Shown here: piece by piece, positions 32,551 to 62,662 of the stretch
How positions within the stretch are numbered: the first letter of the stretch is position 1
Layout of the letters: each line of letters begins with the position of its first letter
Source of the DNA: Adhaeretor mobilis
GTDB taxonomy: Bacteria; Planctomycetota; Planctomycetia; Pirellulales; Lacipirellulaceae
Direction: 5' to 3'
Assembly (NCBI RefSeq): GCF_007741515.1
Contig: NZ_CP036263.1
Coordinates: 4,451,178 to 4,515,177 of the forward strand
Length of the DNA: 64,000 bases
Position numbers and translations under genes: made by a program
The notes under the pieces: generated by a model
Database searches by the model: none
What the model was told of the DNA's origin: nothing
What the model saw: the letters and a program-made list of their open reading frames with translations, nothing else

Positions 32551-32627
32551 ATCGTTGACTGTACAGTTCTTTCAGAAAGCTAAGCTAACAGGAGTGCTAT
32601 TACCGTGCTGATTACGTCACCATTGCT

Positions 32628-33554: not shown

Positions 33555-34336
33555 CGTTCTAACTTGCCTCCTAATAGTTCGTGCAGAATGTCGGTTTGAG
33601 GAAACGGATGTCCCCGGTGTTGGATGAAGGCTTCGGCATACTCGGTGCCAAGTTCGGTGCCTCGCTGCTTACTGTGCCGTTTCATCGACTCAATGTATTC
33701 ATCCATGCCGTGGTGGGAGCGTAGCCACTCACGCTGCGAAGCGTGACAGGCGAGCATCTCGCTCTTCCGGTCAATCTGTTCTGAAATATCGATTCGAACA
33801 GACGGCTTCACCAGCTCTCCAGAGTAGGGGTCGCTCCCCTCGATCGGATCGCAATAGTAGAGCCAAGGGATAGTCGAGCCTGCCAGAAGAGGCAATGGTG
33901 ACGCATTGGGTATCGGGAAACCAAAAGCGGCACTGCGAGCCAGTTGATGCACTTGCTCGTGGTCGAGCATGTAGTCGTGACGCGGATGCGTGAAGACCAG
34001 GGAGGGGGCTACTCGACGGAACAAGTCAATTGCCTTTCGATTCGTCTCTTTCTCAAACACGACATTGACATCGCGTTCCTCCAGGCAGTGATAAGTGGCG
34101 CCGAGTACCCGAGCGGCAGCGACCCCTTCGGCGCGACGTATCTTTGCTATTTCTTCTGGAGGCAAGGAGGCTGACCCGCAATCACCGGGAGTCGCGGTCG
34201 CAATGTGCGTTTCCCAGCCCAGCTTGGCAAGACGTAGCAGGGTGCCAGCACAGAGAATCTCCGCGTCGTCGGGATGTGCTAGGAAGGCTAATGCGACACG
34301 TCGGGTTGTCAGGGTGGAACTGGCCATAGAATCCAT
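33539..34336 (-). CDS. PIG-L/LmbE family deacetylase
   Basis: A zinc-dependent deacetylase of the LmbE-like family, 265 residues, that removes N-acetyl groups from glucosamine derivatives in known members. The metal motif [14 protein letters not shown] is at about residues 18-31, and the second histidine motif region [15 protein letters not shown] at about 117-131. There is no signal peptide. A second in-frame ATG three codons in is an alternative start. It follows nagA and overlaps the NagB-like gene, within an amino-sugar operon that therefore has two different deacetylase types. Confidence 0.9.
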
Positions 34337-34440
34337 GACTCAAATCTTTTGGTAGGTAGGTGGTATCACTCTGAGCTAATTCACTGGAAGCCACCTTTGT
34401 CGTGGCCTGCGCACTTGAGAAGCAAGTGCACGAGTCTCGC

Positions 34441-35367
34441 CTAGGTTAGTGAAAGAGCCTTTTGGGGATTGAGAGAGGTAAGCATGCATATCGAATCTTC
34501 ATCGAGATGTAGGTGATTGCGAAGGTTATCAGCACTCGTAGTCATGGTTGCAACCGAACCTGCCAAATGAGATTTGTCACCAGCAATCGATGTCACTCCA
34601 TACTCGTCAACATCGACCTGTTGCCCTCCGATGGTGTACTGCCCTGGCCCCAGGCCGGCGGCGGAGATCGCATCTGTCACAACAATCGATCGATCAACGC
34701 CTGCGACTTGGAGGTAGTTGCCAAGTGCATAGAACGGAATGTGTACTCCATCGGCGATAAAACAGCACCAGAGGTGATCTGCAAAACTGAGTACTCGCTG
34801 AATGACATTGTCGTGGCGGTCAATCTCCTTGGGACATCCATTGCCTACATGAGTGAACATGGACAGTCCTGAATCGACTGCTGCTCGCAAGACATCAAGC
34901 GGTGCTTCGCAATGTCCGGCTGAGACGATTACTCCCTCCTGAGAAAGTCGTTGAGTTACCTTTAGTCCGCCGTCACGCTCAGGTGCCAGTGTCACTATGC
35001 GGGTTAGTCCTTCTGCCGCCTCCAGCAGTTGGAGCATCACCTCGGTATCCGCAGGCCGAACAGAATTTGCCGGATGGGCACCAACATACCCTGTTCGTTC
35101 GTTGATGAAAGGTCCCTCAATGTGAATGCCTTGTATGACCTTACGTACGATCTCATCTTCGTCGCGAGCCCGAACAATTCGCCGGAGTCGCGAAACCATG
35201 GCATCGATATCATCCGTAATGACCGTAGCCAGGATCCCTTCCACGCCATCGTTCGCTAAGCGTGTACACGCGCGGTGATAGTCTCTACCACTAGCATCGT
35301 CGGAATTGAAATCAACGCCGTCGTAGCCGTTGACTTGCAGGTCAAAGTATTGGGGGCCGTTAATCAT
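34441..35367 (-). CDS. nagA: N-acetylglucosamine-6-phosphate deacetylase, N-terminally short
   Basis: An amidohydrolase-fold deacetylase, 308 residues against about 380 in well-studied NagA proteins. The N-terminal small beta-sandwich (about 50 residues) is absent and the protein begins at the barrel, INGPQYFDLQVNGYDGVDFN. Catalytic features are present: IQGIHIEGPFINE, SAGHCEAPLD, FTHVGNGCP, and VVTDAISAAGLGPG with the catalytic Asp. The frame could not be extended to supply the missing part. It follows nagB by 14 bases. Its product GlcN-6-P is the substrate of the neighbouring NagB. Confidence 0.85.
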   Translation of the reverse strand: MINGPQYFDLQVNGYDGVDFNSDDASGRDYHRACTRLANDGVEGILATVITDDIDAMVSRLRRIVRARDEDEIVRKVIQGIHIEGPFINERTGYVGAHPANSVRPADTEVMLQLLEAAEGLTRIVTLAPERDGGLKVTQRLSQEGVIVSAGHCEAPLDVLRAAVDSGLSMFTHVGNGCPKEIDRHDNVIQRVLSFADHLWCCFIADGVHIPFYALGNYLQVAGVDRSIVVTDAISAAGLGPGQYTIGGQQVDVDEYGVTSIAGDKSHLAGSVATMTTSADNLRNHLHLDEDSICMLTSLNPQKALSLT

Positions 35368-35381
35368 GGATTCCTTGCTTC

Positions 35382-36137
35382 CTAGCGGGTGGCAGACATG
35401 GATTCTGACAGTTTGCTTGCGGCGGGTGGATCCAGGAAGATGGTCGTTGCCAGGTGCGATTGCAAGATAGATGCAGGAACATCCTGGGTAATCGGCCCTT
35501 CAATGACCTTCGCCGTTGCATCTGCCTTCCGTTCGTCGGGAACGCTACAGACAATGGCGTTTGACTTGAGGATTTGCCGAACAGACATGCTAATTGCCTG
35601 AGTTGGGATCTCTTCAAACGTCGAAAACCAGCCTTCGCCAAGTTGTTGGCGACGACATGCCTCGTCCAGCGAAACCACCAAGTAAGGTACTTCCGTATCA
35701 AAATCGGCAGGAGGATCGTTGAAGGCAAGATGGCCGTTTTCGCCTATGCCTATCAGGGCAACATCAATCGGATGAGCTGTTATCAGATCGGATAGGCGAG
35801 AACATTCATCGGCAACTTGCTTAGCCATTCCATCGATAAAATGGAAAGCTTTCAACGGCACCTTGGAAACAAAGCGTTCGCTAAGGTACTTGCAAAACGA
35901 GGCCGGGTGATCTGTGGAAATCCCAATATATTCATCCAGGTGAAATCCCGTAACTTGCTCCCAAGGAATATCCTTCTGCGCTATCAATGCAGCCAACGTT
36001 TCAAATTGGGAGGCTCCCGTGGCAACGACAATATTGGCAGAGCCTCGTTCGGCAACGGCCTGCTTAATCAACTCACCAGCTTTGGAAGCAGCCAGTTCTC
36101 CCATTTCTCTTGTGTCTTTTGAAATAACAACGTTCAT
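35382..36137 (-). CDS. nagB: Glucosamine-6-phosphate deaminase
   Basis: This enzyme converts glucosamine-6-phosphate to fructose-6-phosphate and ammonia. It has 251 residues, close to family length. Key motifs are [15 protein letters not shown] (phosphate loop region), [11 protein letters not shown] with the catalytic Asp, and [17 protein letters not shown] with the ring-opening His. As in the Bacillus enzyme, the residue before GH is Asn rather than Asp. It is the first gene of the minus-strand amino-sugar operon (nagB, nagA, PIG-L deacetylase, NagB-like, aldolase-kinase fusion), with its promoter presumably in 36138-36577. Confidence 0.92.
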
Positions 36138-44941: not shown

Positions 44942-45115
44942 ACATAGCTCCAAGCTGCTCTGATTAGCAATGTAAATTTGACTAAATAGGTTCGCTGTAT
45001 GGGGTGAATCAGCAAGCTGGATAATCCTATTGATTGCCCCGGGTCGATTTCTGCAAGGAGGGGGGCGCTCGGTCACAACTCATGGTCGCGGCCTGCAGTT
45101 GTGTTGCAGGTCGGT

Positions 45116-46156
45116 TCACTGTGTCGGCGCGACTTCGCCTTGGTCAATCGTCGAGATTCCTCGCCAAGGGATTAGATCAACCGTGTCGCTGTAGAAACTC
45201 ACATGACCGTCGACAAACAATACATTCACGCCTCCGGTGTGCATGCTTCTGGCAGCAGCATGTTCGTTTTGTCGGTCCACGCCCGCCGTGGTATCGCAAG
45301 GCATTTGTGGCTGCGAAATACACGCAGTACGATCGATGCGGTCGCCAACACTTGTATTAGGGGTATTACGATGCGTGTAAATGGACTTGCCCATCCATGC
45401 CAGCGCCCAGATGCCACGAGTTTCGTAGGGCTTACTGCTACCGTCATCAGATTCGCCGACTAACAGTTCACTTGCAGCGGCGGTATTGGAAGTTCCGTCT
45501 GTAAAGTCTTTTAAACGACGCCCAACAAGCATGCGAAAAGCGCCGTCTGTGTCATGATCGGAGTCATCTCCACTGCAATAGGCAAGTGTGCTCCACGAGG
45601 CCTTTCCAGTTGGTAACAATATATCGGAACCAAAGGAGACGACATAATTGGACCGGGCACGGCGATCAGCTGAATTCGAAGCTTGGAAATAACGTCCCGC
45701 TGCGTCATCGCTGGGACAAATGAACGTCGCGATGCTCGCGCCAATGGACTGCCTGTTTTGTCCACTATAAACCAGTCGATTAAAATCAAAGTCAGCAGCC
45801 AAATTGGCCTGTTCTAAGAAGGGCAACATATAAACAAACGCGGAAGCACCTGTCCATGACAGGGTGACCGTACTGCACCCCGAAGAGCCTGGCGGCAGAT
45901 TGCTGTTTGCACTCTCGTAACTGTGTATGGCCAAGCCAACTTGCTTCTGATTATTTACGCATTGCGCTCTTCGAGCGGCTTCTCGCGCCGCCTGAACGGC
46001 CGGCAACAGCAGTCCGACCAAAACGCCGATGATCGCGATGACAACCAACAATTCCACTAAGGTGAAACCACCTTCTATTTGCACCTTGCAGGTACGCTCT
46101 TTCGACTTTTCACAAATCGCGGATAAGTCTGAACGTCGCGTCAGTCTTGACTTCAT
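45116..46156 (-). CDS. DUF1559 family protein with type IV pilin-like N-terminus (copy 1)
   Basis: A 346-residue DUF1559 protein. The prepilin signal GGFTLVELLVVIAIIGVLVG is at about residues 29-48, followed by PAVQAAREAARRAQCVNNQK. The C-terminal block is SMHTGGVNVLFVDGHVSFYS, the family's usual end. TAGGAGAT lies just before ATG 46156. The sequence is identical to the product of 48187-49227 and unlike the one at 13892. It lies downstream of a LamG/PEP-CTERM gene, and a hairpin lies between them (46201-46240). Confidence 0.94.
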   Translation of the reverse strand: MKSRLTRRSDLSAICEKSKERTCKVQIEGGFTLVELLVVIAIIGVLVGLLLPAVQAAREAARRAQCVNNQKQVGLAIHSYESANSNLPPGSSGCSTVTLSWTGASAFVYMLPFLEQANLAADFDFNRLVYSGQNRQSIGASIATFICPSDDAAGRYFQASNSADRRARSNYVVSFGSDILLPTGKASWSTLAYCSGDDSDHDTDGAFRMLVGRRLKDFTDGTSNTAAASELLVGESDDGSSKPYETRGIWALAWMGKSIYTHRNTPNTSVGDRIDRTACISQPQMPCDTTAGVDRQNEHAAARSMHTGGVNVLFVDGHVSFYSDTVDLIPWRGISTIDQGEVAPTQ

Positions 46157-46200
46157 GGGAATCTCCTAGAGCACGATCCAACAGAATTCACACAAATCAA

Positions 46201-46240
46201 CCACGACCAGCCGCTGCCCCGGCCTGGGAACTGATCGTGG
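46201..46240 (-). terminator. Hairpin between LamG gene 1 and DUF1559 copy 1
   Basis: CCACGACCAG (46201-46210) pairs with CTGATCGTGG (46231-46240), nine Watson-Crick pairs plus one G-T. The flanking minus-strand sequence TTGATTTGTG is only weakly T-rich, so it may attenuate or process a joint LamG-DUF1559 transcript rather than end it. An identical copy is at 49272-49311. Confidence 0.4.
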
Positions 46241-46287
46241 CTGAATTGTTCATGTCCGTTCACCAAACTAAGTAAAGAGAAAGCCAA

Positions 46288-47610
46288 TCAGCAGTTGCGA
46301 TTCCGATAACAAAGCAACATGAAATTGCACCCTACGATCAAAGCGAGGCAGCTAGGCTCCGGAACCGCTTGGACAGCGGAGAGGGGATAAAAACTTTCTC
46401 CGTAGTTGGATTGCCAATCCGCCAGGCTCCCCACTCCGGGATCTCGCTGCCATGCGAGGAAATCCTGGCCGTCCACGTCGAAATCTGCGTCGAAGTCACC
46501 CGGTACCAGCGCAACGGAGTCCGTTGTGACCCCCCCGACTCCGTTGCTATCCAAAACCAAACCGATACCGGCTGCACCCAAGTTGATTAAGCTGCCAGGC
46601 GTGCCGGAGATTTCGGCATCGAACTCCCAAGTCTTTCCATCGATAGTGACGTCAGTCAGGGAGCCGTCGTACACTTGCCAGAGGCTGTCGGCCTGACTCG
46701 CGTTGTAATTCACGCTTGGATTATTGGCAAAGCTGACAAGCGAGTTGATCTCCGCCGAATTGAGCGCCTTATCCCAAACAGTGAAGTCATCGAGGAATCC
46801 AGGAAAGGGTGCCTTTGCAGAACTACTAACATACCAACGATCGCCCAAGTTGAGGCTGTATTCTGTGGCAAAGCTCGTGCCGTCGGCATAGCCATTGCCT
46901 ATAACGTTACTGGGAGCCGTCACCCACCCGTTTTCAAGTTCTTGATCCGTACCCGACACGGTGGCATTGCCGGAACCAGCGCCGTTGAAGTAGCCGACCA
47001 GAACATCGTTGTCATCGTCAAATACAAGTGCCACATGATTCCAAGTATTCGCTTGAAGGACACCGTATAGCCTCATTCCGACACGATTGTCTCTGATTCC
47101 TTCATCGGGGTTCGCCGTAATCTGCACAAAACCACCTGAGGTGGCGTTCAGATCAATTGCAAAGCCTTGATTTGTACTCCCCATAGCGCCTTTTTTTAAC
47201 AGAGCACCTGTCCGAATGCTGGTCGGGTTAAACCACAACGATGCGGTATATCCGTTTCCAGGAACAGGATTGGCAACGTCTCCGAAATCGACGTGACGAT
47301 CCAGTCCCGCAGTAATGCTATGCCCCACGAACTGCAGACTCTCGCCAATTATGCCGGCTTGACCGGAAATGACCTTCTGTGTCGATTCGCTAGGTCCTGT
47401 AGCTAAACCATCCAAGCTATTCCCAGACGTGTCAAAAACAGTAAAGCCTGCCACGCTAGTATCGCCGCTACCGCCATCGCTTACATCGGCATTATCCATG
47501 GTGGCATGAATCAATGGATCGGCGTGGACGGCGACTGTTCCGGCAAGCAGAGACAATACTCCGATGGTCAAGCCCATTAGCTTGGCACTTGACTCTTGGA
47601 TCAACCCCAT
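46288..47610 (-). CDS. LamG-fold surface protein with dockerin-like segment and PEP-CTERM tail (paralogue 1)
   Basis: A 440-residue exported protein. The signal peptide ends TVAVHA at about residue 30. A LamG jelly-roll follows (LIHATMDNADVSDGGSGDTS; later ANTWNHVALVFDDDNDVLVG and FLDDFTVWDKALNSAEINSL). A dockerin-type loop, GDFDADFDVDGQDFLAWQ, and NLADWQ-like GSLADWQSNYG precede a PEP-CTERM tail (AVPEPSCLALIVGCNFMLLC). ATG 47610 follows GGGAGACC. Its 3' end lies in the duplicated block and a 190-bp 5' part is identical to paralogue 2, with a diverged middle. It is probably the first gene of a LamG-DUF1559 pair. Confidence 0.88.
   Translation of the reverse strand: MGLIQESSAKLMGLTIGVLSLLAGTVAVHADPLIHATMDNADVSDGGSGDTSVAGFTVFDTSGNSLDGLATGPSESTQKVISGQAGIIGESLQFVGHSITAGLDRHVDFGDVANPVPGNGYTASLWFNPTSIRTGALLKKGAMGSTNQGFAIDLNATSGGFVQITANPDEGIRDNRVGMRLYGVLQANTWNHVALVFDDDNDVLVGYFNGAGSGNATVSGTDQELENGWVTAPSNVIGNGYADGTSFATEYSLNLGDRWYVSSSAKAPFPGFLDDFTVWDKALNSAEINSLVSFANNPSVNYNASQADSLWQVYDGSLTDVTIDGKTWEFDAEISGTPGSLINLGAAGIGLVLDSNGVGGVTTDSVALVPGDFDADFDVDGQDFLAWQRDPGVGSLADWQSNYGESFYPLSAVQAVPEPSCLALIVGCNFMLLCYRNRNC
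47353..47542. repeat. 190-bp block identical between LamG paralogues 1 and 2 (copy 1)
   Basis: This part of LamG gene 1, coding for the region after the signal peptide, is identical to 50433-50622. The bases on both sides differ. The same region of paralogue 3 (about 53960-54150) is similar but has many substitutions. Confidence 0.85.
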
Positions 47611-48137: not shown

Positions 48138-48186
48138 GCTCGGTCACAACTCATGGTCGCGGCCTGCAGTTGTGTTGCAGGTCGGT

Positions 48187-49227
48187 TCACTGTGTCGGCG
48201 CGACTTCGCCTTGGTCAATCGTCGAGATTCCTCGCCAAGGGATTAGATCAACCGTGTCGCTGTAGAAACTCACATGACCGTCGACAAACAATACATTCAC
48301 GCCTCCGGTGTGCATGCTTCTGGCAGCAGCATGTTCGTTTTGTCGGTCCACGCCCGCCGTGGTATCGCAAGGCATTTGTGGCTGCGAAATACACGCAGTA
48401 CGATCGATGCGGTCGCCAACACTTGTATTAGGGGTATTACGATGCGTGTAAATGGACTTGCCCATCCATGCCAGCGCCCAGATGCCACGAGTTTCGTAGG
48501 GCTTACTGCTACCGTCATCAGATTCGCCGACTAACAGTTCACTTGCAGCGGCGGTATTGGAAGTTCCGTCTGTAAAGTCTTTTAAACGACGCCCAACAAG
48601 CATGCGAAAAGCGCCGTCTGTGTCATGATCGGAGTCATCTCCACTGCAATAGGCAAGTGTGCTCCACGAGGCCTTTCCAGTTGGTAACAATATATCGGAA
48701 CCAAAGGAGACGACATAATTGGACCGGGCACGGCGATCAGCTGAATTCGAAGCTTGGAAATAACGTCCCGCTGCGTCATCGCTGGGACAAATGAACGTCG
48801 CGATGCTCGCGCCAATGGACTGCCTGTTTTGTCCACTATAAACCAGTCGATTAAAATCAAAGTCAGCAGCCAAATTGGCCTGTTCTAAGAAGGGCAACAT
48901 ATAAACAAACGCGGAAGCACCTGTCCATGACAGGGTGACCGTACTGCACCCCGAAGAGCCTGGCGGCAGATTGCTGTTTGCACTCTCGTAACTGTGTATG
49001 GCCAAGCCAACTTGCTTCTGATTATTTACGCATTGCGCTCTTCGAGCGGCTTCTCGCGCCGCCTGAACGGCCGGCAACAGCAGTCCGACCAAAACGCCGA
49101 TGATCGCGATGACAACCAACAATTCCACTAAGGTGAAACCACCTTCTATTTGCACCTTGCAGGTACGCTCTTTCGACTTTTCACAAATCGCGGATAAGTC
49201 TGAACGTCGCGTCAGTCTTGACTTCAT
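48187..49227 (-). CDS. DUF1559 family protein with type IV pilin-like N-terminus (copy 2)
   Basis: Its 346 residues are identical to those of the product of 45116-46156, with the prepilin signal FTLVELLVVIAIIGVLVG at about residues 31-48 and the terminal VNVLFVDGHVSFYS block. It lies downstream of LamG gene 2 with the same spacing and hairpin as copy 1. Identity at the nucleotide level, including silent sites and flanks, means the duplication is very recent or kept uniform by gene conversion. Confidence 0.94.
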   Translation of the reverse strand: MKSRLTRRSDLSAICEKSKERTCKVQIEGGFTLVELLVVIAIIGVLVGLLLPAVQAAREAARRAQCVNNQKQVGLAIHSYESANSNLPPGSSGCSTVTLSWTGASAFVYMLPFLEQANLAADFDFNRLVYSGQNRQSIGASIATFICPSDDAAGRYFQASNSADRRARSNYVVSFGSDILLPTGKASWSTLAYCSGDDSDHDTDGAFRMLVGRRLKDFTDGTSNTAAASELLVGESDDGSSKPYETRGIWALAWMGKSIYTHRNTPNTSVGDRIDRTACISQPQMPCDTTAGVDRQNEHAAARSMHTGGVNVLFVDGHVSFYSDTVDLIPWRGISTIDQGEVAPTQ

Positions 49228-49271
49228 GGGAATCTCCTAGAGCACGATCCAACAGAATTCACACAAATCAA

Positions 49272-49311
49272 CCACGACCAGCCGCTGCCCCGGCCTGGGA
49301 ACTGATCGTGG
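49272..49311 (-). terminator. Hairpin between LamG gene 2 and DUF1559 copy 2
   Basis: Identical to the hairpin at 46201-46240: arms CCACGACCAG and CTGATCGTGG around a 20-base loop. It has the same weak T-tail and the same uncertain role. Confidence 0.4.
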
Positions 49312-49358
49312 CTGAATTGTTCATGTCCGTTCACCAAACTAAGTAAAGAGAAAGCCAA

Positions 49359-50690
49359 TCAGCAGTTGCGATTCCGATAACAAAGCAACATGAAATTGCA
49401 CCCTACGATCAAAGCGAGGCAGCTAGGCTCCGGAACCGCTTGGACAGCGGAGAGGGGATAAAAACTTTCTCCGTAGTTGGATTGCCAATCCGCCAGGCTC
49501 CCCACTCCGGGATCTCGCTGCCATGCGAGGAAATCCTGGCCGTCCACGTCGAAATCTGCGTCGAAGTCGCCCGGTGTCAGCGACACGGAATCCGTCGTGA
49601 CCCCCCCGACTCCGTTGCTACCCAAGACCAAACCTGTACCGGCCGCACCCAAATCGACGACGCTGCCAGGCGTGCCGGAGATTTCGGCATCGAACTCCCA
49701 AGTCTTTCCATCGATAGTGACGTCAGTCAGGGAGCCGTCGTACACTTGCCAGAGGCTGTCGGCATGACTTGCGTTGTATTTTAGTCCGGGGTGATTGGCC
49801 AAGCTGACAAGCGAGTTGATCTCCGCCGAATTGAGCGCCTTGTCCCAGACAGCAAAGTCATCGAGATACCCAGGGAAGGGGGCCTTAATGGGACGAGTAT
49901 CATACCATCTATCACCCAAGTTGAGACTGTAATCCGTTGCAAAGCTCGTGCCGTCAGCATAGCCGTTCCCTACCACACTAGATGGAGCCGTCACCCACCC
50001 GTTTTCAAGTTCTTGATCCGTACCCGACACGGTGGCATTGCCGGAACCAGCGCCGTTGAAGTAGCCGATCAGAACATCGTTGTCATCATCAAACACTAAC
50101 GCCACATGAAACCAGGTATTCGTTTGAAGAGCACCGTACAATCTCATGCCGACACGATTGTCCCTGCTCCCATCATCATCGGGGTTCGCTGCAATCTGTA
50201 CAAAACCACCTGAAGTGGCGTTCAGGTCAATTCCAAAGCCTTGATCTGTGCTCGCCATAGCGCCTTTCTTAAGCAGCGCGGGGGCAGTAGGAATAGGGCT
50301 GGTCTGCTGAAACCACAGCGATGCGGTATAACCGTTTCCAGGAACTGGATTGGCAACGTTGCCGAAATCAATATGACGCTCTTCCCCGGGCAATATACTC
50401 GCTTCTGTAAGCTGCAGGCTTTCGCCGATCGCGCCGGCTTGACCGGAAATGACCTTCTGTGTCGATTCGCTAGGTCCTGTAGCTAAACCATCCAAGCTAT
50501 TCCCAGACGTGTCAAAAACAGTAAAGCCTGCCACGCTAGTATCGCCGCTACCGCCATCGCTTACATCGGCATTATCCATGGTGGCATGAATCAATGGATC
50601 GGCGTGGACGGCGACTGTTCCGATAAGCAGAAACAGAACTGCTATGGTGATGTCCGTCACAATGGCACCTGACATTCGGATCGAACTCAT
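49359..50690 (-). CDS. LamG-fold surface protein with dockerin-like segment and PEP-CTERM tail (paralogue 2)
   Basis: A 443-residue paralogue of the product of 46288. It has a signal peptide (about 1-30, ITIAVLFLLIGTVAVHA), a LamG jelly-roll (TNTWFHVALVFDDDNDVLIG; YLDDFAVWDKALNSAEINSL), a dockerin-type loop (GDFDADFDVDGQDFLAWQ) and a PEP-CTERM tail (AVPEPSCLALIVGCNFMLLC). ATG 50690 is chosen; the open frame to 50834 has an extension that is conserved among paralogues only because the leader DNA is. The 5' block and the 3' end are identical to paralogue 1 while the middle has diverged. Confidence 0.88.
   Translation of the reverse strand: MSSIRMSGAIVTDITIAVLFLLIGTVAVHADPLIHATMDNADVSDGGSGDTSVAGFTVFDTSGNSLDGLATGPSESTQKVISGQAGAIGESLQLTEASILPGEERHIDFGNVANPVPGNGYTASLWFQQTSPIPTAPALLKKGAMASTDQGFGIDLNATSGGFVQIAANPDDDGSRDNRVGMRLYGALQTNTWFHVALVFDDDNDVLIGYFNGAGSGNATVSGTDQELENGWVTAPSSVVGNGYADGTSFATDYSLNLGDRWYDTRPIKAPFPGYLDDFAVWDKALNSAEINSLVSLANHPGLKYNASHADSLWQVYDGSLTDVTIDGKTWEFDAEISGTPGSVVDLGAAGTGLVLGSNGVGGVTTDSVSLTPGDFDADFDVDGQDFLAWQRDPGVGSLADWQSNYGESFYPLSAVQAVPEPSCLALIVGCNFMLLCYRNRNC
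50433..50622. repeat. 190-bp block identical between LamG paralogues 1 and 2 (copy 2)
   Basis: Matches 47353-47542 without visible differences (offset 3,080, not the 3,071 of the large block, so insertions or deletions lie between the two identical zones). Confidence 0.85.
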
Positions 50691-54457: not shown

Positions 54458-55699
54458 TCAGGGAACTGACACCTGTGCCCAGCGACCGTGTGTCACTCCG
54501 CCCGTTGTGCAAAAATAAGCCACCAGCACATCGCCGTTTGGCAGAAGCACGCCATTTGGACGCCCAAAGGCAATTACAGTGTTCTTGGCGATTACAGTGT
54601 TGTTGGCCGCCTTTTGAGTCGAGGTTTCACTACCAGCGTCGAAGACGACAACTTCGTTTTCAAGGTCGTACTCCGAGAAATTGTTGCTCACCGCCAGGCG
54701 AACCCCCTGAGGTTTGTGCCGGTAATTGTAAATTACTGCAATGCGACCATCCGAAAGTGCAATTGGGCAACAAACTTGCCCGCGTAGATTCGTTGGCTGC
54801 GGTGACGACCACGAGCGACCACAATCGCGTGATATGGCCCAGTGATTGGTCAGATCGGACTGCTTTGTCCAGTCAATGGCCCAAAACATGGTGTATAAAT
54901 CACCATTGCTAAGTAGCGTGCTATTTTGGTCGTGGTATTCGATTCGATCATCGGTGTCATCGGCGACGATGGTGAAATCGCTCCAGGTTTTGCCGGCGTC
55001 TTCCGTGAACACTGCAGCCGCCTTGTGGTCGCGATTGGCGTAACCTTTGGGCATTCCTACTTGCAAGGGATACATCCAGCGATTGGGCTTCAACACCATC
55101 AACCGCCCCATGCCATGGCAAGTATATTTGTCGGCGGGAAGATCGGCGGGCACAACCTGCGGTGCCGACCAGCTATGCCCAGCGTCTGAAGACCACAGCA
55201 CCAATCGCTCGCTCTCGGGCATGGCGCCAGTCTTCAAATCGGCGAGAGTTTTTCCTGAGAATCGAAAGCGATTTACCAACATCGCCAGACGGCCATCAGG
55301 AAGCTCGGTAGTTGACGGACTGCGATACGACCAGGGGTTGTCGCTCGATTCCAGATTCAATCCCGGCAAACGTTCCCAGTGACGCCCTTCATCTCGGGAG
55401 AGCAATACCTGCACTTCCGTATCAGGAGCGGCGAGCGACGAGGCAGTGTATTGCGTCGCAATCCACGTGCCATCAGAGAGCGGCGTGATGTAAGGCATAA
55501 ACGCCGACTCACTCGGGTCACGCGTGATGAATCCGTCCGCGACGATATGTGGCTTCTTAGCGAGCGTTGAAGTGTCACCTTGTTCGGCTTCATTCTTTGA
55601 TGAGCGTTCCTTCGCAGGAACGCTCCCCAGTAATCCAAATACAAGCTGAGTCGCTAGGGCCGCTTGAACAAAGATGCGACGAGTAACTTTCACATGCAT
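54458..55699 (-). CDS. Exported sialidase-family protein (BNR/Asp-box exo-alpha-sialidase type)
   Basis: A 413-residue six-bladed propeller with an export signal (about 1-29, RRIFVQAALATQLVFGLLGS). At least four Asp-boxes are clear: SRDEGRHW, SSDAGHSW, TEDAGKTW and SRDCGRSW. A likely arginine and acidic site is in WSYRSPSTTELPDGRLAM. Many planctomycete proteins of this fold act on sugars other than sialic acid or have no known activity, so the name is a fold-level call. An 18-base tandem repeat near the 3' end encodes NTVIAK-NTVIAF. ATG 55699 begins the signal. It lies upstream of LamG gene 3, and a 3' remnant of a paralogue lies at 47996. Confidence 0.85.
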   Translation of the reverse strand: MHVKVTRRIFVQAALATQLVFGLLGSVPAKERSSKNEAEQGDTSTLAKKPHIVADGFITRDPSESAFMPYITPLSDGTWIATQYTASSLAAPDTEVQVLLSRDEGRHWERLPGLNLESSDNPWSYRSPSTTELPDGRLAMLVNRFRFSGKTLADLKTGAMPESERLVLWSSDAGHSWSAPQVVPADLPADKYTCHGMGRLMVLKPNRWMYPLQVGMPKGYANRDHKAAAVFTEDAGKTWSDFTIVADDTDDRIEYHDQNSTLLSNGDLYTMFWAIDWTKQSDLTNHWAISRDCGRSWSSPQPTNLRGQVCCPIALSDGRIAVIYNYRHKPQGVRLAVSNNFSEYDLENEVVVFDAGSETSTQKAANNTVIAKNTVIAFGRPNGVLLPNGDVLVAYFCTTGGVTHGRWAQVSVP

Positions 55700-56006
55700 G
55701 ATCGAAAAAGTGCTAAGAATCGATGAGGGTGATGGATTCCTTGTAGTGTCAATTATCACGAAAACGGAGCATTCAGTCAAGCGTTCTAGGCCTCATTTTC
55801 TGATTTATGTGCCAAATCCCTGCGCCAATGGCATATGCACTTTACTTTTAATACGATACCTGAGATAATTAGCTACGCGATGTTGGTGCTAGAGGGGAGA
55901 GATTGCTTCAAAGGGATCTACTAAACACAAGTGCGAGCCGACTCATCGCCTCCTATTAGGCTCGCTTCATACTCCTCTTTCTTTAGCAGGCGGTAACGCA
56001 ATTATT
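55700..56006. other. Divergent region between the sialidase and ROK genes
   Basis: About 307 bases without a gene. The sialidase promoter is at 55752-55780. No clear operator for the ROK regulator stands out, although the region from 55840 to 56000 is AT-rich and must hold its promoter. Confidence 0.45.
55752..55780 (-). promoter_or_regulatory. Candidate sigma70-type promoter of the sialidase gene
   Basis: On the minus strand TTGACT (complement of 55775-55780), a 17-base spacer and GATAAT (complement of 55752-55757). The -10 box is about 50 bases before the start codon. The same element, with TTGACA and AATAAT, precedes LamG gene 1. Confidence 0.55.
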
Positions 56007-57212
56007 ATGAGCAACCTTTCTGACCGCAGTATTCTCGATTTAATTCGTGCTGGACGTGCCCAAACCCAAGCCGAAGTCTGCCGACTTACGGGAATGCGAA
56101 GCTCTACGATTTCATGTGTTCTGAAACGTTTACGCGAGGCGGGGCTAGTAGAAACCGTTGGGAAACGAGTCGTGGGTCCCGGTAAGCCGGCGACGGTTTT
56201 CCGGTTTGCTCCCCCCGGAGAGGTGTTGGCAGTGCACATCGACGGCTCGCACGCAGAAGTCGGTATTGTGACTTTGGCGGGGACTGTGCTTACTGAGTGT
56301 TCCGTCGAGCTAGGCAAGTCGCCCGAGCCCCATGCGCTTCTGCAGGAACTCTCGGGGAGAGCCCGCCAATTGGCGGAGCAGTCGGACATCAAGTGGGGAG
56401 GTTTACGAGCACTGGGATTGAGCGTTAATGGCTATGTGTCTCCGGATGGTGTGTTGCAATTTTCTACTGTACTTCCCTGGCGCGACGTTTCTGTAGTGCA
56501 GTTGGCACGCGAGGCCTTTGGCTTGACGGTTTATTGTTCCGATGGTCGTAGTCGGGCTGTAGCGGAATACCGTCACGGAGCCGGGCAGGGAAGCGAGGTA
56601 ATGCTGTTTTTCAATGCTGCCGATGGAGTGAGCGCCAGACCCGTGGTTCGTGGCGAGTTGTTTCGTGGCGCTCGGAGTCATAGCGGGGAGATCGGTCATA
56701 TTGTTGTAACACCCAATGGCCCACATTGTGGATGTGGCCAACGTGGTTGTTTGGAAGCCACTATTAGTGGACCTGCTCTGGTACGACGAATTATTGCGGA
56801 TACTGCGGCAGATTCAAAGCTTGCCCAAGAGCCGGCTATTGCACGATTGGTACATTTAGCTGAGAACAGCCGCGCATCCAAGGTGGTCGATGAGTTGGTG
56901 CGATTGGCGACCGAAGAGCAGTTTGCCTATGCCCAGAGAATGGTCGACGAGGTGGTTTCTTCGGCTGGCCGTGCGCTGGGAACGGCTGTAGCTTGCTTCG
57001 ACCCGGATTGCATCGTCATTGATGGCTACATATTTCGGAATCGACCTGCGCTACTGCATCGACTGTGGCAGTCAGCGAACACGCATTTCAATCCGGATTA
57101 TTCAGAAGTCGTCCGGCTGACACCAGCCATGCTCGGCGCCAGCGCTGAACTTATTTCACTGGCCACGTTTGTCGGAGACAGTTTAGCTTACACCCCCGAA
57201 TTGACTGGGTGA
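56007..57212 (+). CDS. ROK-family transcriptional regulator (NagC/XylR type)
   Basis: A 401-residue repressor or activator. The N-terminal winged helix (about 5-65) has LIRAGRAQTQAEVCRLTGMR and SSTISCVLKRLREAGLV. The ROK domain has the zinc site GEIGH (His 231) and CGCGQRGCLE (Cys 241, 243, 248). The kinase features are lost: the DxGGT motif reads HIDGSHAEV and the catalytic ND motif reads SDGRS, so it is a sensor and not an enzyme. It is divergent from the sialidase gene and upstream of a five-gene operon on the same strand, 87 bases before the aldolase gene, and so probably controls it by sensing a sugar or a sugar phosphate. Confidence 0.9.
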   Translation: MSNLSDRSILDLIRAGRAQTQAEVCRLTGMRSSTISCVLKRLREAGLVETVGKRVVGPGKPATVFRFAPPGEVLAVHIDGSHAEVGIVTLAGTVLTECSVELGKSPEPHALLQELSGRARQLAEQSDIKWGGLRALGLSVNGYVSPDGVLQFSTVLPWRDVSVVQLAREAFGLTVYCSDGRSRAVAEYRHGAGQGSEVMLFFNAADGVSARPVVRGELFRGARSHSGEIGHIVVTPNGPHCGCGQRGCLEATISGPALVRRIIADTAADSKLAQEPAIARLVHLAENSRASKVVDELVRLATEEQFAYAQRMVDEVVSSAGRALGTAVACFDPDCIVIDGYIFRNRPALLHRLWQSANTHFNPDYSEVVRLTPAMLGASAELISLATFVGDSLAYTPELTG

Positions 57213-57299
57213 TGCACATCTGCAAGCAGAGCAAGGACAACTAGAAGTGGCATATGCCTTGGCGTTCGAAGCTAGGGATGAAGCAATCAAGGAAATTCG

Positions 57300-58130
57300 A
57301 TGACAAGTCGCACTAATCAATTGTCGGAGCGCCTACGCAACAAGGAGCCGTTGCTGGGGTTTTATTATGGCTACCCGGCCGAAGGGATTTTGGAAACCAT
57401 AGGACCAGGATGGGATTTTGTGTGGATCGATGGGCAACACGGTCAGTTGTCATTCGGCGATGCCCTGAGCGCGGTACGTGCTGCATCGTGGCTTGGGTTG
57501 GAGACGGTGCTGCGTGTGCCGACGCACGACCCTGGCTTGTTGTCACAGTATGCCGATACTGCGCCGTCCGCAATGATGATTCCGCAGGTTGACTCTGCCG
57601 AGATGGCGACTGCGATCGTGCGCGCCTTGCGATTCCCTCCGCAGGGGAATCGATCGTACGGAGGTCGCAGGGTGATCGACGTCAATGGCCATGATTATTA
57701 CCGATCCAGTGAACCGTTGATTATGGCGCAGATCGAATCCCGTATCGGCTTAAAAAATGTAGAGCAGATTGTCGCAGTTGACGGCATTGATGGTCTGTTC
57801 TTCGGTTGCGACGATTTCAAATTAAGCCTGGGACTGCCTATTGAAACTTGTGCAGCGGAAAACGAGTCAATCCAAATCGCACGGGGTAATACCGCTCGGG
57901 CCGCACAGTCCGCCGATAAGTGGAGCGGCACGAGCATCGGCGTTAGCGAACTGTCGGCGCATCTCGATATGGGATATCAATTGCTTGCGATTGGCAGCGA
58001 TGTTGGCTTCCTCCGCCAAGGAAGCCGGCAAGCCCTTAATGAGGGTCGGAGCATTCTTCATAAGAGTTCGGCCGAAGAAAGCGCTGATGGTGATCGAGTC
58101 CAAACAGCTTCCAACACAGTGAATTCATAG
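57300..58130 (+). CDS. HpcH/HpaI-family aldolase
   Basis: A metal-dependent class II aldolase of 276 residues that cleaves or forms 2-keto-3-deoxy-type acids in known members. The catalytic His is in DFVWIDGQHGQLSF (about residues 39-52). Metal ligands are Glu in MAQIESRIGL and Asp in FFGCDDFKLSLGL. The usual PPQGNRSYGGRR loop is present. There is no signal peptide. It is the first structural gene after the ROK regulator, followed by the deacetylase gene after only 6 bases. In an operon with an aminotransferase and a dehydrogenase, it could shorten or build an unusual sugar acid. Confidence 0.88.
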   Translation: MTSRTNQLSERLRNKEPLLGFYYGYPAEGILETIGPGWDFVWIDGQHGQLSFGDALSAVRAASWLGLETVLRVPTHDPGLLSQYADTAPSAMMIPQVDSAEMATAIVRALRFPPQGNRSYGGRRVIDVNGHDYYRSSEPLIMAQIESRIGLKNVEQIVAVDGIDGLFFGCDDFKLSLGLPIETCAAENESIQIARGNTARAAQSADKWSGTSIGVSELSAHLDMGYQLLAIGSDVGFLRQGSRQALNEGRSILHKSSAEESADGDRVQTASNTVNS

Positions 58131-58136
58131 GTCGAC

Positions 58137-59006
58137 ATGAGTACAGAAATCTACGTTAGCTGGACTTTGGACTGTGAGGCGACGCAACGCGCAGTCAACG
58201 ACATAGAGTTGGGGTGCCGCTCGGCGCGAGCATTTGTTGATCTAACGATGGCCGCGGGCATGATGCCCACATTGTTCGTGCTGCCAGGAGATGCGCAGGC
58301 CTATCCAAAGTTATTGAATACGTTTGCTGAAGAAGGAGTGGAGATAGGCTTGCATTATCATCCACAAGAAGAAGGGTACGATGACTTCTGCGGTGCCTAT
58401 ACCGCAGATGAACAACACGAGATGTATCGAACTGCCGTTCTTCAATTTGCCAACGCCTTAGGTTTCGAGCCGCGAACATTCCGCACCGGAAGCTGCTCGG
58501 CCAACGACGCCACCTTTGCCGTCACGGCTGAGTTGGGATTCACTAGTTGCTCTCACTCAATGCCGGGTCGCAAAATAATGAAATTGCGTAGTAATTGGAC
58601 AGGTGCACCCGATCATGTGCATTATGCACACCCGGCAAATCGACTGCTGGAGAGTGGGCTGGACTTGGTGGAAGTTCCGGTGTCCACCGATCCCGACTCG
58701 ATGCTCTGGTCGGGTGGACATCCGCAAGACTTGCGTGTGGAATTATTTGACGCCAAAAATCAGAAGTTTCTCATCGACAAAATCCTGCAACGTGAAAAAC
58801 TTCGTCTCGGACCGATCAAGTCAATTGTGGGGTTGAGCCACAACATATTCCGTTACGACGAGCCAAACGATTTCCGCCGTCAGACATTCAAACAGATGTT
58901 GAGTGATTTCTCAATGCTGGCTGACCGATACGAGGTGCGGCTTAAGTCTGCAACAGTCAGCGAGCTTGCAACTGCCTATCGGGCGGCGGCTCCACATAGG
59001 CAGTGA
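58137..59006 (+). CDS. NodB-like polysaccharide deacetylase
   Basis: A 289-residue NodB-homology protein without signal peptide. The barrel begins IYVSWTLDCEATQRAV, with the catalytic Asp in LDCE (residue 12). GVEIGLHYHPQEEGYDDF carries the metal histidines, and FEPRTFRTGSCSAND is the R-x-G motif. Late VGLSHNIFRYDEP supplies the last conserved His. A cytoplasmic location suggests a small molecule substrate, such as an N-acetylated sugar or sugar nucleotide, rather than a polymer. It is tightly coupled to the aldolase gene. Confidence 0.87.
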   Translation: MSTEIYVSWTLDCEATQRAVNDIELGCRSARAFVDLTMAAGMMPTLFVLPGDAQAYPKLLNTFAEEGVEIGLHYHPQEEGYDDFCGAYTADEQHEMYRTAVLQFANALGFEPRTFRTGSCSANDATFAVTAELGFTSCSHSMPGRKIMKLRSNWTGAPDHVHYAHPANRLLESGLDLVEVPVSTDPDSMLWSGGHPQDLRVELFDAKNQKFLIDKILQREKLRLGPIKSIVGLSHNIFRYDEPNDFRRQTFKQMLSDFSMLADRYEVRLKSATVSELATAYRAAAPHRQ

Positions 59007-59064
59007 CTTACCTGTTTTTTCTTTATTATCACATTTACCCGCAAGAACTTGATCTTTTAGACCC

Positions 59065-60237
59065 ATGAAAACATCACCCGCGATCCGAGAAATTCCATTT
59101 GCCGCTTTAGGTGGCGTTTTTGAACAGGACGATATTGAGGCTGCGTTGGCAGTCATGCAGGGCGCAGCTGAACCCAGCGGTAGTTTCTTTCCATTGCCCG
59201 AGGAAAACGATTTTCAGCAGGCGCTAGCCAAGCACGAGGGAGCTGCGAAAGCGGTGTCGGTTAATAGTTGCGGCACCGCTCTCGATCTATGCATGATGGC
59301 ATTGGAAATCGCACCCGGCGATGAAGTCATCACTACACCCTTGAGCTTTGTCTGCACCGCGACGTGTGCCATCGCGCTTGGAGCAAAGGTTGTCTTTGCC
59401 GATATCGATCCGAATACCATGTGCCTCGACCCCCAAGATGTGCGAAGACGTATTACACCGCGCACCAAGGCGATCCTGCCCGTACACTTTGCAGGATTGG
59501 CAGCGGACTGTGGCGGTTTCGACGCCATATCGGACGAAACCGGCATCCCGATTATTTACGACGCCGCTCATGCCGTCGGAACAAAGTATCGCGGAGCTCC
59601 TATTGGCGGACGTGGACGCGCCAACTGCTATAGCTTTCAGTCAAACAAGAATATGACGACCCTCGGTGAAGGTGGTGCCGTAACCAGTAATGATGAAGAG
59701 TTTGCTGAGGTGGTTCGCCAAAAGAAAACCTTTGGCTACGTTTATGGCCCACAGTTGCGTGTGGCCTCAGTAGGATTCAACTATAGGATGACCAAGCCCC
59801 AGTCTGCGGTGGGACTCACCCAGCTTGCGAAAATAGATCGTGTGATCAGCCGTCGGCTCGAAGTGTTTCAGGTCATGCATCGGATGCTGGAAGGAGTGGA
59901 AGAGTTGATTCTCCCAGACGGTATCGAAGATGGGCACGGCTGCCATCTATACATAGTTCGCCTCAACACCGACCGCTTTCCGCTGGATCGAGCGGAGTTC
60001 TTAAGTGTACTCAAGAACAAATATCGCGTCTCATGTGGCATGCACTATCCTGCGATTTGGACTTGGGACGCGATGAGTGAACTGGGTTATTCCGAAGCAG
60101 GATCTGACTGTCCAATCGCCGCCAAAGCCTCTCGGCAAGTTGTCAGCCTTCCGCTCTTTCCAAAGACCACTTCCGATGACTGCGAGTATCTCGCATGGGC
60201 AATTAAATCGTCCTTAGCGGAAATACAAAAGTCGTGA
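59065..60237 (+). CDS. DegT/DnrJ/EryC1/StrS-family sugar aminotransferase
   Basis: A PLP-dependent aminotransferase of 390 residues, normal family length. The PLP-binding lysine is Lys 195 in FQSNKNMTTLGEGGAV, the cofactor Asp is 166 in IYDAAHAVGTKYRG, and VNSCGTALDLCMMALEI at 66-82 is the cofactor-phosphate region. This family usually aminates keto sugars bound to a nucleotide, as in deoxy-aminosugar synthesis; a few members act on free cyclitols. In this operon it could make or remove an amino group on a sugar whose acetyl group is handled by the NodB protein. Confidence 0.92.
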   Translation: MKTSPAIREIPFAALGGVFEQDDIEAALAVMQGAAEPSGSFFPLPEENDFQQALAKHEGAAKAVSVNSCGTALDLCMMALEIAPGDEVITTPLSFVCTATCAIALGAKVVFADIDPNTMCLDPQDVRRRITPRTKAILPVHFAGLAADCGGFDAISDETGIPIIYDAAHAVGTKYRGAPIGGRGRANCYSFQSNKNMTTLGEGGAVTSNDEEFAEVVRQKKTFGYVYGPQLRVASVGFNYRMTKPQSAVGLTQLAKIDRVISRRLEVFQVMHRMLEGVEELILPDGIEDGHGCHLYIVRLNTDRFPLDRAEFLSVLKNKYRVSCGMHYPAIWTWDAMSELGYSEAGSDCPIAAKASRQVVSLPLFPKTTSDDCEYLAWAIKSSLAEIQKS

Positions 60238-60279
60238 GCAGCTTAGAATTAGTGTGCGTACAAAAAAAAGTGAACCACA

Positions 60280-61284
60280 ATGACATCAATGGAAAAACTG
60301 CGTTGGGCAATCGTCGGCTTGGGGGATATTGTTCGCAAACGTGTAGGTCCAGCCATCCTCGAACAGCCACAAAGTGTTCTCCAAGCCTGCGTCACACGTG
60401 ATCCAGATCGCCGAACTGATGAGCTGCGTGCTCTAGTGCCTGGCAAGGTGTATACGGATTTCGAACAAATGCTCACGGACACGGAGGTTGACGCGGTCTA
60501 CATTGCGACTCCGGTATTTCTGCACGCTCCGCAAGCGATCGCCGCGCTGCGTGCTGGGAAGCACGTCTTAGTGGAAAAGCCGATGGCACTCGACGCAAGT
60601 GAGGCCGAGGCGATGAATGTCGCTGCCAAGCAGGCCGGCCGCAGGTTATCCGTTGCATATTACCGCCGCTTTTGGCCGACCTTTCAGCGGGTTCACAGCA
60701 TGCTGGAGCAGGGTGATTTTGGCCAAATTGTTTTGGCCCGTGTTGCGCTGCATAGTTGGTACGCGCCGTCGCCGAATGATTCGAATGCCTGGCGCGTTCG
60801 ACCGGAGTACTCGGGAGGCGGAGTCCTGAGCGACGTCGGGTCGCACAGGCTCGATCTACTGGCATGGTGGTTCGGCTTGCCTCAAAAGACGGTGAGCGAC
60901 GTTCGCACTCGCACTCAAGACTATTCAGTGGAAGACTCTGCTACTGGGATCTTGGTCTTCGCAGACGGTTTTCCATGTACGTTGTCGTTTCAATGGAATA
61001 GCAAGACATGGACCGACGAACTGCACATCGTGGGTAGCGAAACGAAAGTTTCTCTTACGCCGACCGACAGTGATGAGATGAAAATCACGTGCGGTCGTGA
61101 GACTACCACTTCACGATTGAACCGGCATCCCAATGCGCATTATGGACTGATCGATGATTTCGCGACAAGCATTCTCGAAGGTCGTGCACCCAGATTCAGT
61201 GGTGATGACGGCATAGCGGCAACCCAAATGATGGATTGGATCAAGCAAGCGGCAACTTGCCGGACATGGATCGAAGGCGGATGA
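60280..61284 (+). CDS. Gfo/Idh/MocA-family dehydrogenase
   Basis: A cytoplasmic NAD(P)-dependent dehydrogenase, 334 residues. The Rossmann fold opens RWAIVGLGDIVRKRVGPAIL, and the catalytic Lys is in VLVEKPMALDASEA at about residues 94-107. The C-terminal domain has GGVLSDVGSHRLDLLAWWFG with the conserved His. Members oxidise or reduce hydroxyl groups of sugars, inositols and sugar nucleotides. A keto sugar made here would be the natural substrate of the aminotransferase 42 bases upstream. The start at 60280 has a second in-frame ATG three codons in. Confidence 0.91.
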   Translation: MTSMEKLRWAIVGLGDIVRKRVGPAILEQPQSVLQACVTRDPDRRTDELRALVPGKVYTDFEQMLTDTEVDAVYIATPVFLHAPQAIAALRAGKHVLVEKPMALDASEAEAMNVAAKQAGRRLSVAYYRRFWPTFQRVHSMLEQGDFGQIVLARVALHSWYAPSPNDSNAWRVRPEYSGGGVLSDVGSHRLDLLAWWFGLPQKTVSDVRTRTQDYSVEDSATGILVFADGFPCTLSFQWNSKTWTDELHIVGSETKVSLTPTDSDEMKITCGRETTTSRLNRHPNAHYGLIDDFATSILEGRAPRFSGDDGIAATQMMDWIKQAATCRTWIEGG

Positions 61285-61288
61285 GAAT

Positions 61289-62662
61289 ATGACAACAACT
61301 AGTGAACTGGGTAAATTACAAGCGCAGTTTGGGGACGTTGCTGAATACATTGGCAATCGGCTTTCGGCTGCGAACCCGTGTGTAGTGGCTTTGATTAGCA
61401 AGTGGCCGACGGGCGACTTAGTGCCGGGACTGAGCGATATGGACTTCCGTGTGGTCTGCGACAAGACGACCACCGCCTCAGACTGGGTCCAAATTGACTG
61501 GCACGTTGGTCGCATCCACCGTGAAATGGTCGAACACCATCCAGAATGGAACCGGATCAATGAACATACCCCCGGAGCGGGTATCTCTTTGACAGAACTC
61601 GATCACGAGCGGCTTCACCACCCCGAGTATTCGGTATGGAATGTGTGGTGGGGCAGTGGCGAGTGGCTAAGTCGCCTAAAATCGCGAACGCTGCCAAGAC
61701 CACTATGCGCAATCGACGAACAATACCATTTGGCGAGATTCTTAACATACTATTCTCCCTACATTCACGGCATTGACCCGCCCATTAATCTTGGCGCATA
61801 TGAACCAAAATATGCGCTACACTCGCGCTGTTGGCATTATTATGCGCCTCCGATGCTCTCTGCCGCTACGTTGCTAGCCCGCAGGCATTTTGTGGGCAAA
61901 CGAGAGTCGCTGAGGTGGCTGATCGAGAATGATTTTGCCAAGAGGCAAACCCAAGCGATGCTACAACAAGTTGATGCTCACTACGATACTCCGGAGCTAT
62001 CGGATCCGTCACGTTTGGATCGCTTTGAACAACTGCTGTGGACTGGGTTTCAAGAGTTGTTCGAACCGGTGTGCCGGTCTGTAGAGCATTTGGAATTACC
62101 AAGCCCTTTTTCGCTAGTGGACTTGAAGCAGCAAGTTAACGATTTGACTGTGGATCCATTAATGGAACTCTTGGAGAATGTCCGCTTTCTTCGCATTCGC
62201 GCTTCCCGGTGCTACTTTTACCTAAACGCACCAGCACATTTCTCCGCGAACCTTCAACTGGTCCAGGAACAACCTTGGATGCAAAAACTCGTAACTCGAA
62301 CGCTCCAATTGCTCTGTCGTTTGCTAGGTGGGCAGGGGCGGAGCTTTGAGGAATGCATGGACGTGCTAGGGGTCGATCTTGACCAGCAACAGCGATCAGC
62401 ACTGCGGTTCGTCACAACATTGACCGCAACGCCAACCTCCGATACGAAGCTTCGAGAGAATTTTGCAGCGGCAGTTGAGATTCTGCCGCACTATTCTCGC
62501 ACGATGGAGCAGGCATTCTCAATACTCTCAATGCGTTCCGACGGCGCTGTCGGCAAACAGCGTGAGGGATCGCTCATACGCCTGGATGCAGTCCATAAAA
62601 CCGCCAAGTCATCTATAATATCCATGCCAGGATTGGAGCCGAAACCAAGTGAAAACTTCTGA
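61289..62662 (+). CDS. Uncharacterised protein with a nucleotidyltransferase-like motif
   Basis: A 457-residue cytoplasmic protein that I cannot place in a named family. Its N-terminus has ALISKWPTGDLVPGLSDMDF (residues 34-53), which fits the GSxxxG...SDxD pattern of the DNA polymerase beta-type nucleotidyltransferase fold, with Asp 50 and Asp 52 as candidate metal ligands and Asp 69 (VQIDWHV) as a possible third. The rest, about 130-450, is mainly helical and rich in Trp and His (SVWNVWWGSGEWL). It starts 4 bases after the dehydrogenase stop, so it belongs to the operon. Transfer of a nucleotide to a sugar or a protein is possible but unproven. Confidence 0.7.
   Translation: MTTTSELGKLQAQFGDVAEYIGNRLSAANPCVVALISKWPTGDLVPGLSDMDFRVVCDKTTTASDWVQIDWHVGRIHREMVEHHPEWNRINEHTPGAGISLTELDHERLHHPEYSVWNVWWGSGEWLSRLKSRTLPRPLCAIDEQYHLARFLTYYSPYIHGIDPPINLGAYEPKYALHSRCWHYYAPPMLSAATLLARRHFVGKRESLRWLIENDFAKRQTQAMLQQVDAHYDTPELSDPSRLDRFEQLLWTGFQELFEPVCRSVEHLELPSPFSLVDLKQQVNDLTVDPLMELLENVRFLRIRASRCYFYLNAPAHFSANLQLVQEQPWMQKLVTRTLQLLCRLLGGQGRSFEECMDVLGVDLDQQQRSALRFVTTLTATPTSDTKLRENFAAAVEILPHYSRTMEQAFSILSMRSDGAVGKQREGSLIRLDAVHKTAKSSIISMPGLEPKPSENF

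Follow-up and report, generated by a model that had tools for sequence, protein, structure and literature searches.

A conserved module of NodB, DegT, Gfo/Idh and a nucleotidyltransferase-like protein of an undescribed family in Adhaeretor mobilis and other bacteria

A stretch of 64,000 nucleotides from the planctomycete Adhaeretor mobilis (contig NZ_CP036263.1, positions 4,451,178 to 4,515,177 of the forward strand), referred to here as the window, carries an operon of six co-directional open reading frames. The last of them encodes an orphan protein of 457 residues, named NTF in this report. The features of the operon, with positions counted within the window, are as follows.

56007 to 57212, + strand: ROK-family repressor-like regulator with an N-terminal winged helix (Pfam ROK, 3e-33); accessory
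57300 to 58130, + strand: HpcH/HpaI class II pyruvate aldolase (Pfam HpcH_HpaI, 1.5e-28); accessory
58137 to 59006, + strand: NodB-like (CE4) amide hydrolase without a signal peptide (Pfam Polysacc_deac_1, 1.1e-6); core
59065 to 60237, + strand: DegT/DnrJ/EryC1/StrS aminotransferase dependent on pyridoxal phosphate (PLP) (Pfam DegT, 6.9e-96); core, the best conserved
60280 to 61284, + strand: Gfo/Idh/MocA NAD(P)-dependent dehydrogenase (Pfam Gfo/Idh, 1.3e-25); core
61289 to 62662, + strand: NTF, with a nucleotidyltransferase-like N-terminal domain (residues ~1-133) and an all-helical C-terminal domain
61400 to 61447, + strand: active-site-like segment of NTF, K38-W39-x3-D43-L-V-P-G47-L-S-D50-M-D52-F

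The gap between the ROK and HpaI genes is 87 bases, and those that follow are 6, 58, 42 and 4 bases. Pfam and NCBIfam agree on the ROK, HpcH/HpaI, polysaccharide deacetylase, DegT and Gfo/Idh families, and both the coordinates and the Pfam models bear out a preliminary description of this DNA, which had reported five tightly spaced genes of these families after a ROK regulator. The NTF gene is present in a single copy in the 6.0 Mb genome. Promoter-like and terminator-like matches around the operon are no better than those in shuffled sequence.

The genes for NodB, DegT, Gfo/Idh and NTF almost certainly constitute a real, conserved and mobile module. Their grouping is far beyond chance, in that the same set recurs across several phyla. 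When 84,980 species genomes were scanned with an alignment of four NTF sequences, 14 loci emerged, to give 15 with the window; the alignment was needed, as a first genome-wide scan with a single NTF sequence gave no match. The 14 loci, all from metagenome-assembled genomes, span seven phylum labels: Planctomycetota, Acidobacteriota, Actinomycetes, Aminicenantes, Chloroflexi, Lentisphaeria and Spartobacteria. The short Actinomycetes and Aminicenantes contigs may be misbinned, and the NTF of locus L020 is 93% identical to that of the Acidobacteriota locus L018; among the Acidobacteriota, Chloroflexi and planctomycetes, the longer contigs extend to 37-155 kb. Viral contigs and plasmids yielded no relatives of NTF, and a match in genome G414 was discarded as a 54-residue fragment with an internal stop.

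The neighboring genes at each locus were searched by tblastn. A NodB gene lies near NTF in the window and 12 other loci (L015-L021, L023-L026 and L028); the contig of L027 ends inside NTF, and L022 has a separate, barely recognizable deacetylase just downstream, WbmS-like with an expectation value (E) of 0.0026, below the cutoff. Even a distant NodB keeps its place beside NTF, since the identity of the L023 and L024 proteins with the remaining NodB proteins is only 20-29%. DegT of the same clade is found in 12 of the 15 loci, as is a clearly related Gfo/Idh, with more distant Gfo/Idh genes in L022 and two Gfo genes each in L019 and L021. In the available sequence, neither DegT nor Gfo is seen in L024, and no same-clade DegT in L022; both loci lie near contig ends, and these absences are provisional. 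Genome G463 (L015), of the same order and another family, has the full order HpaI-NodB-DegT-Gfo-NTF, at 61, 66, 72, 61 and 56% identity, respectively. The order in G386 (L025) is DegT-Gfo-NTF-propeller-NodB, and in G793 (L027) it is DegT-Gfo-NTF, running into the end of the contig. HpaI is restricted to the window and L015 (2 of 15 loci), and therefore the conserved unit comprises four genes. The five-gene neighborhood proposed in the preliminary description survives as this smaller unit, without the aldolase. The role of HpaI had been overstated, and the suggested substrate, an amino keto sugar acid, is weakened because it rests on this accessory gene.

Among 392 planctomycete genomes, the two that carry NTF are exactly the two that carry its DegT clade (E below 1e-110), and among 98 relatives the two with NTF are also the two with NodB. 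Given that the window genome is one of the two carriers, each count amounts to a single independent confirmation, and more weight falls on the adjacency of the genes in other phyla. The trees are host-discordant, and that of NTF has two deep groups, each mixing phyla, as expected of a module that moves horizontally. The identities of NTF and DegT correlate (Spearman 0.70, over pairs that are not independent). DegT is the most conserved core gene, with at least 56% identity in every pair of loci, and such conservation hints at a single shared substrate.

NTF is a member of an undescribed family that domain libraries miss. Searches of Pfam, NCBIfam and PDB sequences with the window protein gave no match, no nucleotidyltransferase Pfam model matches any of the 15 members, and a profile search of the PDB returned only chance matches of a coiled-coil-like kind. 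The motif of the window protein is GD-x5-SDMDF (GDLVPGLSDMDF), a correction to the GD-x8-SDMDF first reported. G42 is variable across the family, and the conserved core is [SAG]KW-x3-DL[VI]PGLSD[MLFY]D[FT]R. Residues K38, D50, D52, E92 and E103 are invariant in all 15 sequences, with E92 and E103 as candidates for a third catalytic carboxylate. The two invariant aspartates of the motif, together with the two invariant glutamates, argue for metal-dependent catalysis. At the position of the Gly-Ser (GS) signature, the 15 sequences have SK, AK or GK (S37-K38 in the window protein), and then the invariant W. GS or GG is the nucleotidyltransferase signature, and a basic residue there has precedent, since RelA/SpoT synthetases carry GR (PMC11646218).

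An AlphaFold model of NTF, built from the 15 aligned sequences, has a predicted local distance difference test score (pLDDT) of 83.7 and a predicted template modelling score (pTM) of 0.84, and its C-terminal region of ~300 residues is all-helical. When the full chain was compared to the PDB with Foldseek, hits 1-16 were all aminoglycoside nucleotidyltransferases (best E 0.042, best probability 0.96), and the next recognizable matches were HalB, CdnC and MntA. The N-terminal 133 residues alone match MNT antitoxins, a Sulfolobus nucleotidyltransferase, CdnC, AAD(9), Cid1 and AadA. Most of the top matches are nucleotidyltransferases, with E of 0.04-0.6 for the full chain and at least 0.13 for the domain, and a structure search of BFVD found nothing. 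The nearest canonical nucleotidyltransferase found to the family is P0005 (368 residues, L014:9453-10559), a bona fide NTP_transf_2 protein that surfaced in an early profile search, independently of the structure comparison. Comparison by hhalign of the NTF family to P0005 gives 87.6%, with E of 3.5e-6 over the motif (a value for a single comparison), and pairs AAKWxxEDLIPGLSDxD of the NTF family with LKGSYARREHVPGISDID of P0005, such that D50 and D52 align with SDID. No one of these lines of evidence is decisive singly; jointly, they make it very likely that NTF has a polymerase-beta-type nucleotidyltransferase fold, and profile and structure comparison thus favor the fold proposed in the preliminary description.

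The active sites of the partner enzymes look intact by sequence comparison with known families. NodB keeps D12-C-E14, H73-x-H75 and H235 (in LSHN), with the second histidine missing from the divergent L023 and L024 proteins. In DegT, the Schiff-base lysine K195 and D166, which serve PLP, are invariant in 12 sequences, and the closest solved structures include ArnB (the best PDB match), scyllo-inositol transaminase, WbpE and NtdA. Gfo/Idh keeps E99-K-P and D185-x-G-x-H189-x2-D192, and its closest PDB structures are sugar dehydrogenases and reductases. The HpaI aldolase retains H47, R72, E146 and D172. The pairing of DegT with Gfo/Idh is a known two-step route from CH-OH to CH-NH2, as in NtdC/NtdA, WbpB/WbpE and SpcB/SpcS2.

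The genes that surround the module are variable. The regulator is of the ROK type in the window and L026 and of the LacI type in L025 and L027. The ROK gene of G463 (L007:11622-11928) retains only ~24 N-terminal and ~66 C-terminal residues, with a large deletion between them that reflects either decay or an assembly collapse. In L016, the module completes an eight-gene co-directional run, in the order AAC(3)-type acetyltransferase, MttB, propeller, SSF symporter, NodB, DegT, Gfo and NTF, and AAC(3) and an SSF symporter are also beside the module in L024. As a link to aminoglycosides, AAC(3) was given little weight, as related genomes carry several copies (G386 has five) and the window genome has none. 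Paralogues of the propeller are found elsewhere in G386 and G793 and nowhere in the window genome, and this cytoplasmic protein is therefore not core. The coordinates of these neighbors are given below.

L016:1258-6704: AAC(3)-type acetyltransferase, MttB-type methyltransferase, propeller and SSF symporter, co-directional with the module
L016:3736-4938, L022:8557-9708, L025:11197-12348 and L026:1022-2179: propeller-like family with no confident Pfam match

In the window, a BNR_2 (sialidase-like) gene with a probably secreted product (54458-55780, - strand) is divergent from the ROK gene, and further BNR_2 genes are found in the vicinity of the module in L028 and in L019, where the gene is directly upstream of NodB. 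An amino-sugar catabolism cluster (30262-36137, - strand), ~20 kb from the operon, encodes NagB-like and NagA-like proteins, a PIG-L (BshB1-like) deacetylase, an unknown 308-residue protein and a PfkB-type kinase with an N-terminal extension. An exact repeat of 1431 bases (45067-46497 and 48138-49568), with copies 3071 bases apart that each encode a pseudopilin-like H-X9-DG protein of 346 residues, is a very recent duplication.

The substrate of the module is fairly probably an amino sugar or aminocyclitol. In the proposed scheme, Gfo/Idh would oxidize a ring hydroxyl of a sugar or cyclitol to a ketone, DegT would use PLP to replace the ketone by an amine, and NodB would free the amine by removal of an N-acyl group, probably N-acetyl. 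NTF would then use a polymerase-beta-type site, built on two aspartates and dependent on metal, to move a nucleotidyl group from a nucleoside triphosphate (NTP) onto the amino sugar or cyclitol, at a hydroxyl or a phosphate. In the window version, the ROK regulator would sense the sugar and the HpaI aldolase would add or remove a pyruvate-derived unit. Gene order, conservation, co-occurrence, families, motifs and predicted fold are what is seen; which reactions take place, in what order and direction and on which substrate, and that NTF is a catalyst, are deduced from them. The best explanation of the whole, offered tentatively, is that the window operon represents one host's version of a mobile module of four genes that handles a small amino sugar or aminocyclitol. 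It is likewise plausible, somewhat short of probable, that NTF as modelled nucleotidylates a small amino sugar or aminocyclitol. The fuller joint reading is rather unlikely to hold in every part: that a family with lysine in place of the GS serine performs this nucleotidylation as a dedicated metabolic step, and that such an NTF is a metabolic relative of the nucleotidyltransferases that confer aminoglycoside resistance, at work in an undescribed, horizontally spread pathway.

Several observations weigh against the proposed scheme. The GS/GG half of the nucleotidyltransferase signature is missing, such that the nucleotidyltransferase-like character first ascribed to NTF stands as a predicted fold, with the activity conditional. 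No Foldseek match in the PDB reaches an E of 0.001, and template modelling scores are low (~0.2 for the whole chain and 0.3-0.4 for the N-terminal domain). The core is without a glycosyltransferase, a sugar-1-phosphate nucleotidyltransferase or a kinase, and the sugar-responsive regulators and the SSF symporter (two loci) would equally suit catabolism.

The foremost rival, itself unlikely, is a catabolic operon for an imported N-acetylated amino sugar or aminocyclitol. NodB would deacetylate it, DegT would deaminate it towards a ketone, Gfo/Idh would reduce or oxidize it, HpaI would cleave it to pyruvate and an aldehyde, and NTF would trap or tag an intermediate. ROK or LacI regulators adjoin four loci, the SSF symporter of L016 is in one co-directional run with the module and L024 has one too, HpaI-class aldolases are usually degradative, and the NagA, NagB and PIG-L genes are 20 kb away in the window. 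However, the NTP cost of nucleotidyl transfer is unusual in catabolism, and neither HpaI nor the transporters are conserved along with the core. Regulators, symporters and HpaI lean towards catabolism, whereas the NTP-consuming step leans towards biosynthesis or tailoring.

The preliminary description also allowed for modification of a target, but it is improbable that NTF instead modifies a macromolecule, by protein AMPylation or at an RNA 3' end, either with the pathway product or to regulate the pathway enzymes. The N-terminal domain alone does match MNT antitoxins, which AMPylate the HEPN toxin, as well as CdnC and Cid1, and the all-helical C-terminal region is large, but the best full-chain matches modify small molecules and the constant partners of NTF are small-molecule enzymes. 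Altered chemistry on the same fold, with transfer of another part of the NTP, or no catalysis at all, with NTF as a sensor or scaffold, is quite doubtful; the replacement of serine by lysine ([SAG]K-W in 15 of 15) is comparable to the GR of RelA/SpoT (PMC11646218), but both motif aspartates and two further glutamates are invariant. Arn-like synthesis of an amino sugar for a surface polysaccharide or lipid, with DegT and NodB in the roles of the aminotransferase ArnB and the deformylase ArnD, is very improbable: ArnB is the best PDB relative of DegT and a NodB-type enzyme acts in that pathway, but the core neighborhoods examined are without a membrane transferase, glycosyltransferase, formyltransferase or polyprenyl-phosphate enzyme.

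The module is rare and conserved across phyla, its four core enzymes look soluble, and NTF, its hallmark, founds a new protein family. If NTF does nucleotidylate an amino sugar in ordinary metabolism, chemistry so far mainly associated with antibiotic resistance would gain a metabolic setting, and NTF would illustrate how a nucleotidyltransferase can function without the GS signature. The preliminary description knew of no pathway with this gene combination, and none was found in the open-access literature, a search that leaves most subscription papers outside. This is a new enzyme family in an undescribed pathway and not a categorically new system.

The kanosamine, Arn and NagAB pathways were each considered and rejected for a mismatch with the gene set. 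The Arn pathway for 4-amino-4-deoxy-L-arabinose shares a DegT enzyme (ArnB) and a NodB-like amide hydrolase (ArnD), but the window operon is without ArnA, a glycosyltransferase or a membrane transferase and has Gfo/Idh and NTF; no homologues of ArnA, ArnC or ArnT are found in the operon or its annotated neighbors. The NtdABC kanosamine operon of Bacillus subtilis likewise makes an amino sugar with DegT and Gfo/Idh enzymes, and NtdA is among the PDB relatives of DegT, although not the closest. That operon has neither a NodB deacetylase nor a nucleotidyltransferase, and its HAD phosphatase, NtdB, has no counterpart here, as no phosphatase gene is in the window run. HEPN/MNT antitoxins share the fold of the N-terminal domain, but NTF has a helical C-terminal region of 300 residues and metabolic neighbors in place of a HEPN partner. 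The best structural matches of NTF remain the aminoglycoside nucleotidyltransferases AAD(9), ANT(4')-Ia/KNTase and AadA, which transfer AMP to an aminoglycoside hydroxyl. They similarly place a helical domain after the nucleotidyltransferase domain, carry both motif aspartates, and have amino sugars and aminocyclitols as their own substrates. In comparison to these enzymes, NTF lacks GS, is ~200 residues longer with extra helices, is ~13% identical in structural alignments, and is located in a metabolic operon.

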